A DNA stretch of 32,723 bases from Alphaproteobacteria bacterium (GTDB lineage: Bacteria; Pseudomonadota; Alphaproteobacteria; ATCC43930; CGMCC-115725): positions 1-32,723 of the forward strand of contig JAGXBG010000006.1 in assembly GCA_018971215.1 (NCBI GenBank). Reading direction: 5' to 3'. The notes under the pieces were generated by a model. It worked only from the letters and a program-made list of their open reading frames with translations. It was not told the origin of the DNA and searched no databases. Positions 19,581 to 26,788 of the stretch are shown here, piece after piece; within the stretch, counting starts at the first letter, position 1; each line of letters opens with the position of its first letter. Position numbers and translations under genes: made by a program.

Positions 19581-19644
19581 GCGCCGCGTGGTCGCGGCAT
19601 GAGCGTTGTCGCGAATCGGGCCGGCATTATACGGTGCTCGGCGC

Positions 19645-20244
19645 ATGCAGCTGGAATTCCGCGTCCTCGAATTGCTCGCCTCGCGGCTCTGCCACGAGCT
19701 CATCAGCCCGGTCGGCGCGGTCAACAACGGCGTCGAGCTGCTTGGCGACGGCGACGCCGGCTTCGTGCGCGACGCCACGACCCTGATCGGCCAGAGCGCA
19801 CGGCGCGCAGCGCTGCGGCTGCAGTTCTACCGCTTCGCCTATGGCGCCGGCGGCGTCGGCGGCGGCGCGCCCGAGGCCAAGGCGCTGGTCGCCGGCATCC
19901 TCGAAGGCGGCAAGGTGCGCTGCGACTGGCCGGCCGAATTCGACGCGCTGTCGGTATCGTGGCAGAAATTCGCCTGCAACCTGATGCTGCTGGCGGTGGA
20001 GATCCTGCCGCGCGGCGGCACCGTGACGTTGGCGCGCGAAGGCAGCGGCGTCGCGGCAGTTGCGGCAGGCGAGGCGGTGAACCTGACGCAGGAACTGAAA
20101 GCGGCCCTGGCGCCAGCAGCCGAGGTCGCGGCGCTGACCGCGCGCACCGTGCATGCCTATTTCACTGCGCGGTATGCGGAGCATGTCGGCACCAAGCTGA
20201 TGCTGTCCGAGGCCGACAAAAGCGCGATGTTCGCAGCGAACTGA
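19645..20244 (+). CDS. chpT: Histidine phosphotransferase of the CckA-CtrA relay
   Basis: LELLASRLCHELISPVGAVNNGVELLGDG (HPt-like His in CHELISPVGAVNNG); adjacent to ctrA. Confidence 0.88.
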   Translation: MQLEFRVLELLASRLCHELISPVGAVNNGVELLGDGDAGFVRDATTLIGQSARRAALRLQFYRFAYGAGGVGGGAPEAKALVAGILEGGKVRCDWPAEFDALSVSWQKFACNLMLLAVEILPRGGTVTLAREGSGVAAVAAGEAVNLTQELKAALAPAAEVAALTARTVHAYFTARYAEHVGTKLMLSEADKSAMFAAN

Positions 20245-20380: not shown

Positions 20381-21106
20381 TCAAGCTTTGACCGCAACCC
20401 GCGCCGGCTCGTTGGCCGGAACTTCGGCGCCCGGCGGGTCGCGCAGCACGTAGCCGCGGCCCCACACGGTCTCGATGTAATTCTCGCCGCTGGTGGCGTT
20501 GGCGAGCTTCTTGCGGAGCTTGCAGACGAAGACGTCGATGATCTTGAGCTCGGGCTCGTCCATGCCGCCGTAGAGATGGTTGAGGAACATCTCCTTGGTC
20601 AGCGTCGTGCCCTTGCGCAAGCTGAGGAGCTCGAGGATGCCGTATTCCTTGCCCGTCAAATGGAGGGGCGCGCCGTCGGCTTCGACGGTGCGGCTGTCCA
20701 GGTTGACGGTGAGCTTGCCGGTGCGGATCACCGATTCCGAATGGCCCTTGGCGCGGCGGACGATCGCCTGGATGCGGGCGATCAGCTCACGGCGGTCGAA
20801 CGGCTTGCCGAGAAAATCGTCGGCGCCGAAGCCCAAGCCCTTGATCTTGTTGTCGAGCTCGTTGAGTCCCGACAGGATCAGGATCGGTGTACGCACCCGC
20901 GCCGCGCGCAGACGGCGCAGAACCTCGTAGCCGTCGATGTCCGGCAGCATGAGGTCGAGCACGATGATGTCGTAATCGTAAAGCTTACCGATCTCGAGCC
21001 CATCCTCGCCGAGGTCGGTGGTGTCGCAAATGAAGCCCTCGCTCTTGAGCATCATGTCGATGCTGGCGGCGGTGGCTGAATCATCCTCGATCAGAAGCAC
21101 ACGCAT
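20381..21106 (-). CDS. ctrA: Cell cycle response regulator CtrA
   Basis: [112 protein letters not shown]. Confidence 0.97.
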
Positions 21107-21301
21107 GACGGACCCCCGACGAAGCGATTGTTTGGCAAATGGTAACTTTAATCATCCTTACCGACGCACGTAAAAAATCAGTTAATTTTAGAAATCCCGG
21201 AGCCTTTTTTTACCCCCGGTCCATACTTGTGATCGAAATGGGGCCGAGTCGGCCACAACTTCGTCACATATCGCGACTCGGAAACGTAGAATTGTCCTTA
21301 T

Positions 21302-21316
21302 TTAACAGGCAATTAA
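21302..21316. promoter_or_regulatory. Perfect CtrA box TTAA-N7-TTAA
   Basis: TTAACAGGCAATTAA, 186 bp upstream of the ctrA start and 161 bp upstream of the fliJ-like start. Confidence 0.8.
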
Positions 21317-21812: not shown

Positions 21813-21840
21813 TTTCAGCTCTCAGCTTTCAGCTTTCAGA
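21813..21840. repeat. Four tandem imperfect TTTCAGC heptamers
   Basis: TTTCAGC TCTCAGC TTTCAGC TTTCAGA. Confidence 0.85.
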
Positions 21841-21913
21841 CGTCCGCCAGGTGCTGTCGTTCGGTCAGCGTCGAATGCTCGCACCTGATAGCGGAGAGCT
21901 GACGGTTTAGAGT

Positions 21914-22396
21914 CTAGAGCTTCACGTGCAGAAGGCGCGCGGCCAGGCTTTCGGCGGTGAACGCCTCGACGCCCTGGCCGAGCGCTCAGCGCCGCCACAT
22001 CCGCTACGATCTCGATCTCAATGCCGAGCGTCGCCGCGAAATGCCGTAGCTGTTCGACGCTCGCCCGACGTGTGCCGTCGCAGGTGACGAGGCGCACGGC
22101 GCAACCGCGCGTTCTGGCATGCGCCGCGAGCTTGGCGATCGCTAACGTCTTGCCGATGCCGGGCACACCGACGAAGAAGAACCGGCCGGCGGTGGCGCCG
22201 AGCGGATTGAACGGATAAAGCTGGGCGAGGGCGCGGTCGTTGGCGGCTACGACGCTGCAAGACGCACCAGCTTGCGGATTTGCGGCGTCCGAATGTCGTG
22301 GGCGGAAAGCGCGATTTCGAGCGCCATATCTTCCGGCAACGGCGTCAGCGCCGGACAGCGGACGACAGTTCCGGTGGTGTTGCTCGGAGGGGGCAT
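21914..22396 (-). pseudogene. FlhF-like/SRP-GTPase remnant, frameshifted and truncated
   Basis: MPPPSNTTGTVVRCPALTPLPEDMALEIALSAHDIRTPQIRKLVRLAAS* then, in another frame, NDRALAQLYPFNPLGATAGRFFFVGVPGIGKTLAIAKLAAHARTRGCAVRLVTCDGTRRASVEQLRHFAATLGIEIEIVADVAAL, then a third-frame GQGVEAFTAESLAARLLHVKL*. Confidence 0.65.
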
Positions 22397-22464
22397 GGCT
22401 CACCGCTCGCGCGGGCTTGGCGCCCGCGGCAAACGTAGAGCGGCGTGATGAAGGACCGCTTAAA

Positions 22465-22878
22465 CTACGGCAGGCGGCGCGCTGGCGGCCGGTTGGCTGG
22501 GACCGCGGAATTCGCCGGATTGGCCACATCGTTCGCCGGGCCGGTCCCGAGGCTGCGGTAATCCTGCAGCCGGGTGACGCGCAAGCCGGGCAAGCCATGA
22601 CTGTCGACCAGACGCTGCCAGGCGAGGAATTCCTCGATCGACAACGCGTAGCGCTTGCAAGCCTCTTCGAGGCTGATGACCCCTGCGCGCACTGCGGCGA
22701 CGACGACCGCCTTGCGGCGAATGACCCAACGTTTGGTCTCCGGCGGCGGCAGGCTGTCGAGCGACAGCACCGGTCCGATATCGACGAGCCAGTCGTTTTC
22801 GGTCTCGACCGGACGCACCGCAGGCGCAGCATTGGTGCGCGCGGCGGCGCTAACTGGATTGGAAAATCGCGTTTGCAT
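22465..22878 (-). CDS. sciP: CtrA inhibitor SciP (DUF1153)
   Basis: LDSLPPPETKRWVIRRKAVVVAAVRAGVISLEEACKRYALSIEEFLAWQRLVDSHGLPGLRVTRLQDYR. Confidence 0.92.
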   Translation of the reverse strand: MQTRFSNPVSAAARTNAAPAVRPVETENDWLVDIGPVLSLDSLPPPETKRWVIRRKAVVVAAVRAGVISLEEACKRYALSIEEFLAWQRLVDSHGLPGLRVTRLQDYRSLGTGPANDVANPANSAVPANRPPARRLP

Positions 22879-22902
22879 GACCCCAAATTTAGGGGGACCG
22901 GC

Positions 22903-22917
22903 TTAAAAAAGCCCTAA
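22903..22917. promoter_or_regulatory. CtrA-like box (one mismatch) upstream of sciP
   Basis: TTAAAAAAGCCCTAA = TTAA-N7-CTAA, about 25 bp upstream of the sciP start. Confidence 0.55.
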
Positions 22918-22958
22918 AACCGCGGCGACCAAACAGTGGCTAAGCGCTTGGACAATTG

Positions 22959-22973
22959 AGATAAAATTTATCT
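22959..22973. promoter_or_regulatory. Perfect dyad AGATAAA-A-TTTATCT in the sciP/flbT spacer
   Basis: 7-bp inverted arms with a single central base. Confidence 0.5.
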
Positions 22974-23000
22974 TTTCGGCATTTTAGTGCGAGTCCCGAC

Positions 23001-23015
23001 TTAACCCATTCCTAA
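23001..23015. promoter_or_regulatory. CtrA-like box (one mismatch) upstream of flbT
   Basis: TTAACCCATTCCTAA = TTAA-N7-CTAA, 65 bp upstream of the flbT start. Confidence 0.55.
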
Positions 23016-23079
23016 AGCTTCAACCTTAGAACGGACGACGGGGCACCGCGCAACGGCGCCAAACAAGTCAGGCCGTAGA

Positions 23080-23499
23080 ATGCCGCTGACCATCAATCTG
23101 AAGCCGCGCGAAAAGCTGATCCTCAACGGCGTCGTGATCGAGAATTCGGGTCCGATGGCCAAGATTCTGATCCACACGAATGCAGCCCTGCTGCGCGAGA
23201 AAGACGTGCTGCCCGAGGAGAAAGCAACGACGCCGGCGCGGCGAATCTATTTCGCCATCCAGTGCCAATATCTGTTCGCCGGCAAGGCGGAGATGTTCCT
23301 GGCCAGCATCGAACGGCAGCTTGCGGAATACGAACAAGCGCGCCCCGAATCGCGCGCGCTGCTCGTCGAGATTCGCCGCCTGCTCGCCGAGGATCAATTT
23401 TATCGCGCGCTGAAGACCGCGAAGTTGTTGATCCAGCACGAGGAAGCCGCTGCCGCCGCGTTGCCATCCGCGATGGCCACCAAGCCTACGCTGGCGTGA
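23080..23499 (+). CDS. flbT: Flagellar biosynthesis repressor FlbT
   Basis: MPLTINLKPREKLILNGVVIENSGPMAKILIHTNAALLREKDVLPEEKATTPARRIYFAIQCQYL. Confidence 0.93.
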   Translation: MPLTINLKPREKLILNGVVIENSGPMAKILIHTNAALLREKDVLPEEKATTPARRIYFAIQCQYLFAGKAEMFLASIERQLAEYEQARPESRALLVEIRRLLAEDQFYRALKTAKLLIQHEEAAAAALPSAMATKPTLA

Positions 23500-23646
23500 A
23501 CGAACCGTCCGGCGCCGGCGATAGTTGCCGGTAAAACCTAATAACATATTTTGAATCAATGTGTTGCGGTGCTTGCCCGCAAGCCCCGCGATTCATATAC
23601 TCCGCGCCGCTTTGGTCGATCCAGTGGGGCCTGCGAGGTTTTGGTA

Positions 23647-24063
23647 ATGCGGCCGATGCTTCCTCCCGACTATCACCCGTCGGAAGACGAAGAGTTCATG
23701 AATCCCGTCCAGCGCGAATACTTCCGCCAGAAGCTGCTGCGCTGGCGGGCCGAGCTGCAGGCGGAATCGAGCGCGACCTTGCAGCAGCTCAAGGAAGAGA
23801 GTTTGGCCGAGGCGGACATCTCCGATCGCGCCACGCTCGAAACCGATCGCTACACCGAACTGCGCACGCGCGATCGCGAACGCAAACTGATCTCCAAGAT
23901 CGATGCGGCGCTGATGCGCATCGAAGACGGCAGCTACGGCTATTGCGAGGAGACCGCCGAGCCGATCGGCATCCGCCGGCTCGAGGCGCGGCCGATCGCG
24001 ACTCTCTCGCTCGAAGCGCAGGAGCGCCACGAGCGCATGGAACGCACCCACCGCGACGACTGA
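23647..24063 (+). CDS. dksA: RNA polymerase-binding protein DksA (single-Cys, zinc-finger-less type)
   Basis: MNPVQREYFRQKLLRWRAELQAES...GSYGYCEETAEPIGIRRLEARPIATLSLEAQERHERMER. Confidence 0.93.
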   Translation: MRPMLPPDYHPSEDEEFMNPVQREYFRQKLLRWRAELQAESSATLQQLKEESLAEADISDRATLETDRYTELRTRDRERKLISKIDAALMRIEDGSYGYCEETAEPIGIRRLEARPIATLSLEAQERHERMERTHRDD

Positions 24064-24241
24064 CGCTGCGCGTCGCTGAATTCGTCCTGGGCAGACTCGC
24101 CGTACGAAGCGTAGCCTTGCTCTCGTTAACCATGCTACGGCGATTGTCGCTGCGCACCGCGATTGGGGTGCCGAGGGAAGTCGCTAAAGCCGCGCCTGCC
24201 GCCCGATCCGGTGGCCGACCGTGTGCTAGGCTGCGAGGCTG

Positions 24242-26788
24242 ATGGAGCTGCGGTATGAGGGGGATGTAGCATCCGGCGCCGGGACCGGTCCGGTCGCGAC
24301 GGCGGCTGCGGTGCTGCGTGACGACGCGGTCGCCGGCGGCGTCGCCGCCTGGATGCGCGCGCTTGGCGCGCTGTCCGTCGTCTTCTCGATGGTGGCGCTC
24401 GCGCTGACGGCGTTGTTGGTTTTCCACATCGGCAACGAGATCGCACTGCGCGCGGCTGCCGTGCTGGCGGCGACATTCGCGCTCAGCGCCGGTGTAGCCA
24501 GTGTCGTCACCAAGCAGATGTACCGCCTGTTGTCGCGCCGCATCGATCTGATGAGCCAGGCGATCGAAGCGACGCCGGGCGCGTATCTGATCCTGTCGTC
24601 CGACGACGCGATGGTGTACGCCAACGGTGCCTTCCGTCGTTTCTTTCCGGCGCTACGCGGCGCACCGCTCGCCGCGCTCGCTGCGCGCGCCGGCGGCGTC
24701 GATCTCGTGCGCCTGAAACACGACGCGCTGCGCGCCGGCCAGGCGCTCGGCGTGCTCGCTGTCGCCAACGCTGCGGGCGACACGCAGTGGTTCAACCTGA
24801 TCGTCGCGCCGCTCGCCGCCAGCCACGGCTACACGTTGTGGAGCTTCCAGGATGTCACGGCGCCCCACACGATGGAGCAGATGCTGCGCGACGAGCGCAT
24901 GAAGCTCGCGGATTTTCTGGATAATGCCCCCATAGGCTTCTATTCGGTCGACCAAGTCGGCCGGTTCCTCTTTGTCAATGAGGCACTGGCACAATGGCTC
25001 GGCCGCGGCGCGCAGGAGCTGGTCGACAGCGGCGACACGCTCGGCGATTTCCTCGATGAGAAACCGCCGTCCGGCGCGCCGCCCTATGCGCCGTTCGAAG
25101 GCGGCGAGACGCGCGGTGAAGTGGTGCTCAAAAGCGCTGACGGCCACCGCATCCACGCGCTCATCGGCCAGAGCGTGGTGCGCACCGGCGACAGTCTGCG
25201 CACGCGTTCGGTCGTGCGCGATCTGACGCCTGAGCGCCAATGGGAAGAGCAGCTGCGCGTCTCGCGCCAGCGCTTCCGGCGGTTCTTCGCCAACGCACCG
25301 GTCGGCATCGCGCTGATGGACGGCGACGGCCGCATCGCCGAAGCCAACGACGCGCTGTGCTCGTTAGTTGGGCTCGAGCCGGTCGGTGTCATCGGTCGGC
25401 CGCTGCTCGAGTTCCTCAAACCCGAGGACCAGGACGCCGCGTTCGGCCAGCTGCGCGCGGCGAGCGAGGGCCGCATTGCGCCGGGCCCCGTGGAAGTTAG
25501 GCTGGCAGGCGCCGGCAACAAGTCGGCGCAGATCTTCATCAGCCGCCTCGGCGACGCCGCCGCCGACACCGCCGCCGGCGGCGGATTCATCCTCCACTTC
25601 ATCGATCAGACCGAGCAAAAGAGCCTGCAGGCGCAATTCGCACAATCGCAGAAGATGCAGGCAGTCGGTCAGCTCGCCGGCGGCGTCGCGCACGATTTCA
25701 ACAACCTGCTGACGGCGATGATCGGCTTCTGCGACTTGCTGCTGCTGCGCTTCCGGCCGGACGAGGCATCGTTCGGCGACATCATGCAGATCAAGCAGAA
25801 CGCCAACCGCGCCGCCAATCTCGTGCGCCAGCTGCTGGCCTTCTCGCGCCAGCAGGCGTTGCAGCCGCGCGTCCTCGCGGTCAGCGATGCGCTCGCCGAT
25901 CTGTCCAACCTGCTGCGCCGCCTGATCGGCGAGAACATCGAGCTCAAGGTGGTGCAGGATCCCAAGCTGTGGTTGGTCAAGGTCGATCAGGGCCAGCTCG
26001 AACAGGTGATCATCAATCTCGCGGTCAATGCGCGTGACGCCATGCCCCAGGGCGGCGCGTTGTCGATCCGCACGGCCAATATCGCCAGCGACAGCGAGAC
26101 GCGCCGCGGCCACGAGGTCATGCCGGCAGGCGATTACGTGCTCATCGAGGTCAAAGACACGGGTCACGGCATCGCGCGCGAAATTCAGCACCGCATCTTC
26201 GAGCCGTTCTTCTCGACCAAGGAGATCGGTTCCGGCACCGGGCTCGGCCTGTCGACGGTTTACGGCATCGTCAAGCAGACCGGCGGCTTCGTCTTCGTCG
26301 ACAGCGAGATCGATCGCGGCGCGACTTTCTCCATCTTCCTGCCGCGCCACGAAGGTGCTGGACCCGAGCCGGTGCGTCCCGAGGCCGGCGAGACCAGCGC
26401 GCGCGATCTGACCGGCGCCGGCACCGTGCTCTTGGTCGAGGACGAAGATCCGGTGCGCTTGTTCTCGGCGCGCGCGCTCGCCAACAGCGGCTACAAGGTG
26501 CTCGAGGCGAAAAGCGGCGAAGCCGCGCTCGAGATCATGGCGCGCGGCGAAAAGATCGATCTCGTCGTCACCGACGTCGTCATGCCGAAGATGGACGGTC
26601 CGGGCCTGGTGGCGAAGTTGCGCCAGCGCCATCCCGACCTCAAGGTCATCTTCATCTCGGGCTACACCGAAGACTCGTTCCGCAAGCGGCTCGGCGACGA
26701 GCATGAGATCCATTTCCTGCCGAAGCCGTTCTCGCTCAAGCAGCTCGCGGGCAAGGTCAAGGAAGTGCTCACCGAACCCGTGGTGTGA
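24242..26788 (+). CDS. cckA: Hybrid sensor histidine kinase/response regulator CckA
   Basis: N-terminal TM segments, PAS domains, HisKA AVGQLAGGVAHDFNNLLTAMIGFCDLLLLR, HATPase NLAVNARDAMPQGG/STKEIGSGTGLGLSTVYGIVKQTGG, C-terminal receiver ILLV-type VLLVEDEDPVRLFSARALANSGYKVLEA. Confidence 0.94.
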   Translation: MELRYEGDVASGAGTGPVATAAAVLRDDAVAGGVAAWMRALGALSVVFSMVALALTALLVFHIGNEIALRAAAVLAATFALSAGVASVVTKQMYRLLSRRIDLMSQAIEATPGAYLILSSDDAMVYANGAFRRFFPALRGAPLAALAARAGGVDLVRLKHDALRAGQALGVLAVANAAGDTQWFNLIVAPLAASHGYTLWSFQDVTAPHTMEQMLRDERMKLADFLDNAPIGFYSVDQVGRFLFVNEALAQWLGRGAQELVDSGDTLGDFLDEKPPSGAPPYAPFEGGETRGEVVLKSADGHRIHALIGQSVVRTGDSLRTRSVVRDLTPERQWEEQLRVSRQRFRRFFANAPVGIALMDGDGRIAEANDALCSLVGLEPVGVIGRPLLEFLKPEDQDAAFGQLRAASEGRIAPGPVEVRLAGAGNKSAQIFISRLGDAAADTAAGGGFILHFIDQTEQKSLQAQFAQSQKMQAVGQLAGGVAHDFNNLLTAMIGFCDLLLLRFRPDEASFGDIMQIKQNANRAANLVRQLLAFSRQQALQPRVLAVSDALADLSNLLRRLIGENIELKVVQDPKLWLVKVDQGQLEQVIINLAVNARDAMPQGGALSIRTANIASDSETRRGHEVMPAGDYVLIEVKDTGHGIAREIQHRIFEPFFSTKEIGSGTGLGLSTVYGIVKQTGGFVFVDSEIDRGATFSIFLPRHEGAGPEPVRPEAGETSARDLTGAGTVLLVEDEDPVRLFSARALANSGYKVLEAKSGEAALEIMARGEKIDLVVTDVVMPKMDGPGLVAKLRQRHPDLKVIFISGYTEDSFRKRLGDEHEIHFLPKPFSLKQLAGKVKEVLTEPVV

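Follow-up and report, generated by a model that had tools for sequence, protein, structure and literature searches.

Two CtrA boxes in the divergent sciP-flbT spacer of an uncultured alphaproteobacterium: a probable pair of CtrA-activated promoters

The sciP and flbT genes of an uncultured alphaproteobacterium stand head to head around a 201-bp spacer that contains the sequence TTAA-N7-CTAA twice. This arrangement raises the question of whether CtrA governs both genes and, if so, whether each gene has a box of its own. We analyzed the 32,723-nucleotide stretch of DNA that carries the locus (referred to here as the window), which is contig 47 of a 2.5-Mb (2.54-Mb) genome. The nearest relatives found were REEB MAGs labelled Alphaproteobacteria, followed by uncultured Rhodospirillales MAGs. 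We consider it likely that the spacer holds two divergent promoters, both activated by CtrA and each with an independent box.

The gene cluster and the two boxes

The genes chpT, ctrA, sciP, flbT, dksA, and cckA all lie between 19.6 and 26.8 kb of the window, a distance of about 7 kb (Table 1). Judged from the family profiles, this cluster would comprise the CckA-ChpT-CtrA phosphorelay, the CtrA inhibitor, and FlbT, which regulates flagellin transcripts at the level of translation (PMC7591256). CckA and ChpT were the best profile matches, yet they scored under the lineage-specific cut-offs, whereas CtrA scored above the NCBIfam cut-off. The FlbT product scored under both NCBIfam equivalog cut-offs despite passing that of Pfam. 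CtrA, CckA, and ChpT, on which membership in the class of CtrA-activated promoters depends, are all encoded by the organism itself. The cckA-dksA-(flbT)-sciP-ctrA-chpT neighbourhood, partly with recA, was seen again in other families (L012/L097, L075, L094), which suggests an ancestral CtrA pathway cluster that was scattered later. The reading frame between ctrA and sciP (21822–22469) gave a partial GTPase-domain match to FlhF/SRP54-like GTPases and looks shortened or frame-shifted; FlhF/SRP54-like fragments, 62–73% identical, are retained across the genus.

Table 1. Genes and predicted regulatory elements around the sciP-flbT spacer (window coordinates).
Feature	Position	Strand	Remarks
chpT, histidine phosphotransferase	19606..20244	+	PF10090
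ctrA	20381..21106	-	NCBIfam NF045991, above cut-off
Perfect CtrA box upstream of ctrA	21302..21316	-	TTAATTGCCTGTTAA; read as TTAACAGGCAATTAA in the genome-wide site list
sciP, CtrA inhibitor	22465..22878	-	DUF1153 PF06627, 111 bits; NF051866, 118 vs cut-off of 100 bits
sciP start codon, predicted transcription start	22876..22878	-	25th base past box
Putative -10 element TAAATT, sciP promoter	22886..22891	-	11 nt past box
CtrA box, sciP promoter	22903..22917	-	TTAG-GGCTTTT-TTAA toward sciP; 5' base at about -38
Third conserved spacer block	22938..22967	.	Genus sequence GGCTAAGCnnnTGGACAATTnAGnTAAAAT; no CtrA box
CtrA box, flbT promoter	23001..23015	+	TTAA-CCCATTC-CTAA; 5' base at about -37
Putative -10 element TTAGAA, flbT promoter	23026..23031	+	10 nt past box; [CT]TA[AG]AA in the genus
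flbT	23080..23499	+	Pfam FlbT PF07378, 113 vs cut-off of 27 bits
dksA	23647..24063	+	Probable housekeeping promoter at 23573–23601
CtrA half site upstream of cckA	24126..24133	+	TTAACCAT; full box missing in the window
cckA, hybrid histidine kinase	24242..26788	+	Best profile match, under lineage-specific cut-off

The sciP-side box (TTAAAAAAGCCCTAA) is located 25 bp from sciP and the flbT-side box (TTAACCCATTCCTAA) 64 bp from flbT, with a gap of 83 bp between them (98 bp from start to start). The original prediction had placed the two occurrences at 22903 and 23001, had counted one mismatch from TTAA-N7-TTAA in each, and had named the flanking genes sciP and flbT. All of this was confirmed: the N7 spacing is exact in both boxes, and the two products matched DUF1153/NCBIfam "CtrA inhibitor SciP" and Pfam FlbT, respectively. 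Both boxes have the same + strand orientation. Read toward sciP (TTAG-N7-TTAA), the deviant half is therefore the promoter-distal one, and read toward flbT (TTAA-N7-CTAA), it is the promoter-proximal one.

The uniform-base estimate was about 0.07 boxes per spacer, and the spacer is AT-richer than that model assumes. When the 201-bp spacer was shuffled 20,000 times with its dinucleotides preserved, at least two boxes (≤1 mismatch) were obtained in 3.0% of the shuffles, and two boxes of the stricter form (TTAA-N7-[CT]TAA or TTAG-N7-TTAA) in 0.045% of the same shuffles. The whole 2.54-Mb genome has about 29 distinct sites of the form TTAA-N7-[CT]TAA, and the 1.7 kb at ctrA-sciP-flbT account for three. 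Each of the four genus members has the sciP-flbT arrangement, with both boxes at the same positions; a lack of conservation in relatives, which had been named beforehand as refuting, was thus not seen. The half-site bases were invariant in the four members (16/16, both deviant C residues included), compared with 102 of the remaining 185 spacer positions (55%). Pairwise identity to the spacer of the window was 70–84% among genus members. The claim that two boxes are not expected by chance is therefore upheld by their conservation, and the count alone argues for it less strongly than had been stated. On these alignments, it is conservation, rather than box count, that decides in favor of real boxes.

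The sciP promoter in the genus and across the class

Each box is followed by a putative -10 element 10–11 nt downstream, on the side of its own gene, and the 5' ends of the boxes are at -38 (sciP) and -37 (flbT). These positions match the geometry of the CtrA-activated promoters of Caulobacter, in which full CtrA boxes lie near -35 and the ctrA P2 box at -39 (PMC4287350), and of R. sphaeroides, in which the box ends 23–24 nt from the transcription start (PMC6180460).

The 8-mer over the sciP -10 region (CCTAAATT, 22893–22886) was invariant within the genus. With the box-to-start spacing taken from PMC6180460, the predicted transcription start in the window is the A of the sciP ATG, and a leaderless mRNA is thus predicted. 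An in-frame ATG was present 0–2 nt from the predicted start (25 nt past the box) at 17 of 29 loci from several genera of the family, where chance would give about 1 in 64, implying that the sciP mRNA in the family of the window would usually be leaderless.

Upstream regions of sciP were gathered from the family and the class. Among the 151 regions left after the removal of redundancy, some of which perhaps belong to SciP paralogues, 128 contained a box with ≤1 mismatch (chance mean 16, maximum 25, in 100 simulations), and in 112 the box was followed by TA at 10–13 nt (chance 4.7, maximum 9). TTAG-N7-TTAA accounted for 71 of these 112, TTAA-N7-TCAA for 17, TTCA-N7-TTAA for 13, and the perfect box for 1; the core of the typical sciP box is TTAG-SSCTTTN-TTAA. 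The box persists without an adjoining flbT in nearly all relatives. These comparisons make the sciP box look ancient and the CtrA-sciP link ancestral.

CtrA control of sciP has been reported in Caulobacter, S. meliloti, Hyphomonas, and Brevundimonas (PMC7987155, PMC4433202, PMC7200025), and the sciP promoters of all four have the CtrA site upstream, as here. In Brevundimonas subvibrioides, the half-sites are TAAA and TTAG, the latter shared with the window, and replacing both abolished sciP transcription (PMC7987155). The sciP gene of the window differs from those of the known CtrA-activated promoters in its predicted leaderless mRNA and its head-to-head position with flbT. Taken together, the class-wide box, the -10 spacing, and the Brevundimonas mutation strongly support CtrA control of sciP through the box at 22903–22917, in line with the original prediction.

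The sciP box was perfect in 1 of 112 promoters, its variant half being TTAG, TTCA, or TCAA depending on the lineage, whereas the four genus members all keep a perfect box at ctrA itself, with a variable N7. One tentative reading, which we regard as possible rather than probable, is that selection holds the sciP box one base off the consensus and that the lower affinity would let ctrA fire first and sciP (here also flbT) later. This reading covers a class-wide, built-in delay on the negative feedback, together with the leaderless sciP mRNA in the family of the window. The idea that an imperfect box is peculiar to sciP was weakened by boxes downstream of sciP in other Rhodospirillales, which are also one base off, in the other half (TTCA/TTTA). 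These form a conserved TTAAC-N6-TTCA/TTTA box with TAnnnT about 60–200 bp past sciP in many Rhodospirillales (L040–L066). Judged from the start of the encoded protein, the gene behind this promoter directly downstream of sciP is apparently fliF.

The flbT promoter, its pairing with sciP, and further CtrA sites

In regards to flbT, the transcription start is predicted at about 23038–23040. Independent flbT promoters with a box (≤1 mismatch) and a -10 element were found in the sister genus g8, and four Kiloniellaceae MAGs have a perfect box and a -10 element at flbT. Genus g7 and three other MAGs have a one-mismatch box without a recognisable -10 element, and no box was found upstream of flbT in several genera of the same family; the flbT box is conserved in fewer lineages than the sciP box. 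CtrA control of flbT is supported by the conservation, the promoter geometry, and the flbT boxes of sister genera and Kiloniellaceae MAGs. In Caulobacter, CtrA occupies PflbT, and the activity of PflbT-lacZ increases with occupancy (PMC6169604). Two parts of the original prediction were modified by these results. A box was said to face each gene, which applies to the -10 elements and not to the boxes, since the latter share one orientation. The circuit was also said to be extended to flbT; the control of flbT is supported, but nothing is extended by it, since PflbT of Caulobacter has already been reported as bound by CtrA. The feedback part, in which SciP would act back on flbT, received no direct support from the spacer sequence.

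In the sister genera, flbT belongs to a flagellin-flagellin-flbT-flaF cluster located 6–10 kb from sciP, and sciP comes after fliK-flgD-flgE, whereas flbT in the window adjoins sciP inside the CtrA cluster. Given this distance, the head-to-head pairing is probably specific to the genus of the window, and the two promoters were probably once separate CtrA targets that were joined by rearrangement. The divergent flgB2p-fliI2p pair of R. sphaeroides likewise has a separate CtrA site near -35 at each of its promoters (PMC6180460), but it has a 6-bp spacing and serves structural genes, in comparison with 7 bp and regulator genes here. The ctrA, cckA, and chpT genes of Rhodospirillum rubrum likewise adjoin flagellar genes (PMC12363192); the window differs in holding chpT, ctrA, sciP, flbT, dksA, and cckA in about 7 kb and in having CtrA sites at ctrA, sciP, and flbT and upstream of cckA. 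CtrA control of sciP, CtrA binding at flbT, and divergent CtrA promoters are already known, and every link has a precedent. What is new is the physical pairing of sciP with flbT and its place in the compact chpT-ctrA-sciP-flbT-dksA-cckA cluster.

The full CtrA box that the window lacks upstream of cckA is present in three genus relatives, the dksA-cckA spacers of which (L031, L032, L033) contain a perfect TTAA-N7-TTAACCAT about 110–120 bp upstream of cckA. Boxes with ≤1 mismatch were also found upstream of cckA at four further loci (L021, L025, L029, L075), two of them perfect, suggesting that CtrA may control its own kinase CckA. It thus seems that the genes of the core pathway have CtrA sites of their own. 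A housekeeping-type promoter, TTGCCC-N17-TATACT (23573–23601), is conserved within the genus and probably serves dksA. The interval from flbT to dksA showed no terminator. Read-through from flbT to cckA is possible and is not required, because dksA has this conserved promoter.

The genome G003 (L032, L330; 99% complete) retains flbT, sciP, and both boxes and gave no match to the FlhA, flagellin N, and flagellar rod/hook C-terminal families; FlhA was only partial in G001. Either the bin lacks a flagellar contig or the CtrA-sciP-flbT module persists after the flagellum is lost. In the genome of the window, two flagellar contigs (C33 and C46 of G000; L328, L329; 27.5 kb) contained a single box (≤1 mismatch), so that most structural genes of the flagellum may not be direct targets of CtrA in this organism. 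A wide CtrA regulon was rejected for this genome on the basis of that one box in the 27.5 kb sampled. The genes beside most of the other perfect boxes were not obviously flagellar, judged from sequence starts only.

The spacer contains a third block (22938–22967), which is as conserved as the boxes themselves and shows that there is at least one further input to the spacer. It includes GGACAATT, and the same 8-mer occurs at 21290–21297, past the CtrA box of the ctrA promoter, in all four genus members. This 8-mer was rejected as a general CtrA-partner motif, its class-wide enrichment near sciP coming mainly from the genus of the window and Kiloniella. No conserved SciP-type motif was found in the spacer in the genus comparison. 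The candidate GCGAC at 22925–22929 (about -48 of sciP) is not conserved within the genus; the reference motif, GCGNC (or GCGNC-N5-GNCGC) at -60 to -90, comes from Caulobacter only.

Proposed mechanism and alternative explanations

From the sequence, conservation, and geometry of the two promoters, we infer that CtrA binds, that it activates and does not repress, that it depends on phosphorylation, and how it is timed, as follows. CckA and ChpT would phosphorylate CtrA, all three being encoded within 7 kb. CtrA~P would then bind each box across the -35 position and bring RNA polymerase to the -10 element on that box's own side. On the sciP side, transcription from TAAATT would start at or beside the sciP ATG and give a leaderless mRNA; on the flbT side, transcription from TTAGAA would start near 23039 and give a leader of about 40 nt. 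A single rise in CtrA~P would thereby turn on, at the same time, FlbT as the flagellin regulator and SciP as the inhibitor of CtrA itself.

It is improbable, in our estimation, that only the sciP box activates, with the flbT-side box secondary or repressing and flbT transcribed mainly from another promoter, for example via 22938–22967. The class-wide occurrence of the sciP box beside the patchy flbT box and the conservation of the middle block, equal to that of the boxes, agree with such an arrangement, and some promoters are known at which a CtrA site overlaps the -10 element and serves repression (PMC4287350). However, the flbT box is at -37 with its own -10 element downstream and does not overlap it, g8 and Kiloniellaceae show the same flbT geometry without a sciP spacer, and in Caulobacter PflbT becomes more active as CtrA binds (PMC6169604). 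A shared bidirectional operator, in which one box or both jointly govern the two promoters, is very unlikely: the boxes are 83 bp apart, each with its own -10 element at an activating distance, and nearly all relatives have the sciP box without flbT beside it, even though divergent flagellar promoters with a common CtrA site have been described, as at fliF2-fliL2 of R. sphaeroides (PMC6180460).

We give scarcely any credence to the view that the main protein on the boxes is SciP itself, MucR, a different regulator of the OmpR type, or some other factor. Although the ChIP peaks of Caulobacter SciP and MucR overlap CtrA motifs (PMC4287350) and the third block of the spacer is unaccounted for, the sequence, spacing, and -35 placement of the boxes fit CtrA activator sites, the ctrA gene lies 2 kb away, sciP of Brevundimonas is no longer transcribed once its box is mutated (PMC7987155), and the Caulobacter SciP half motif (GCGAC, 22925–22929) varies in the genus. 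Chance matches in an AT-rich spacer are the least probable explanation of all, since the 16/16 invariance in the genus and the class-wide recurrence at sciP contradict them despite the 3% of shuffles with at least two boxes.

A divergent pair of CtrA-activated promoters therefore remains the likely reading of the spacer, and the pairing would have merged pre-existing CtrA targets into a single divergent control region. The CtrA-sciP negative feedback link would reach past the few studied species, since about 85% of the sampled alphaproteobacterial sciP genes have the box upstream in a fixed geometry, and the idea that its timing is set by affinity may be tested directly in Caulobacter by a one-base change.
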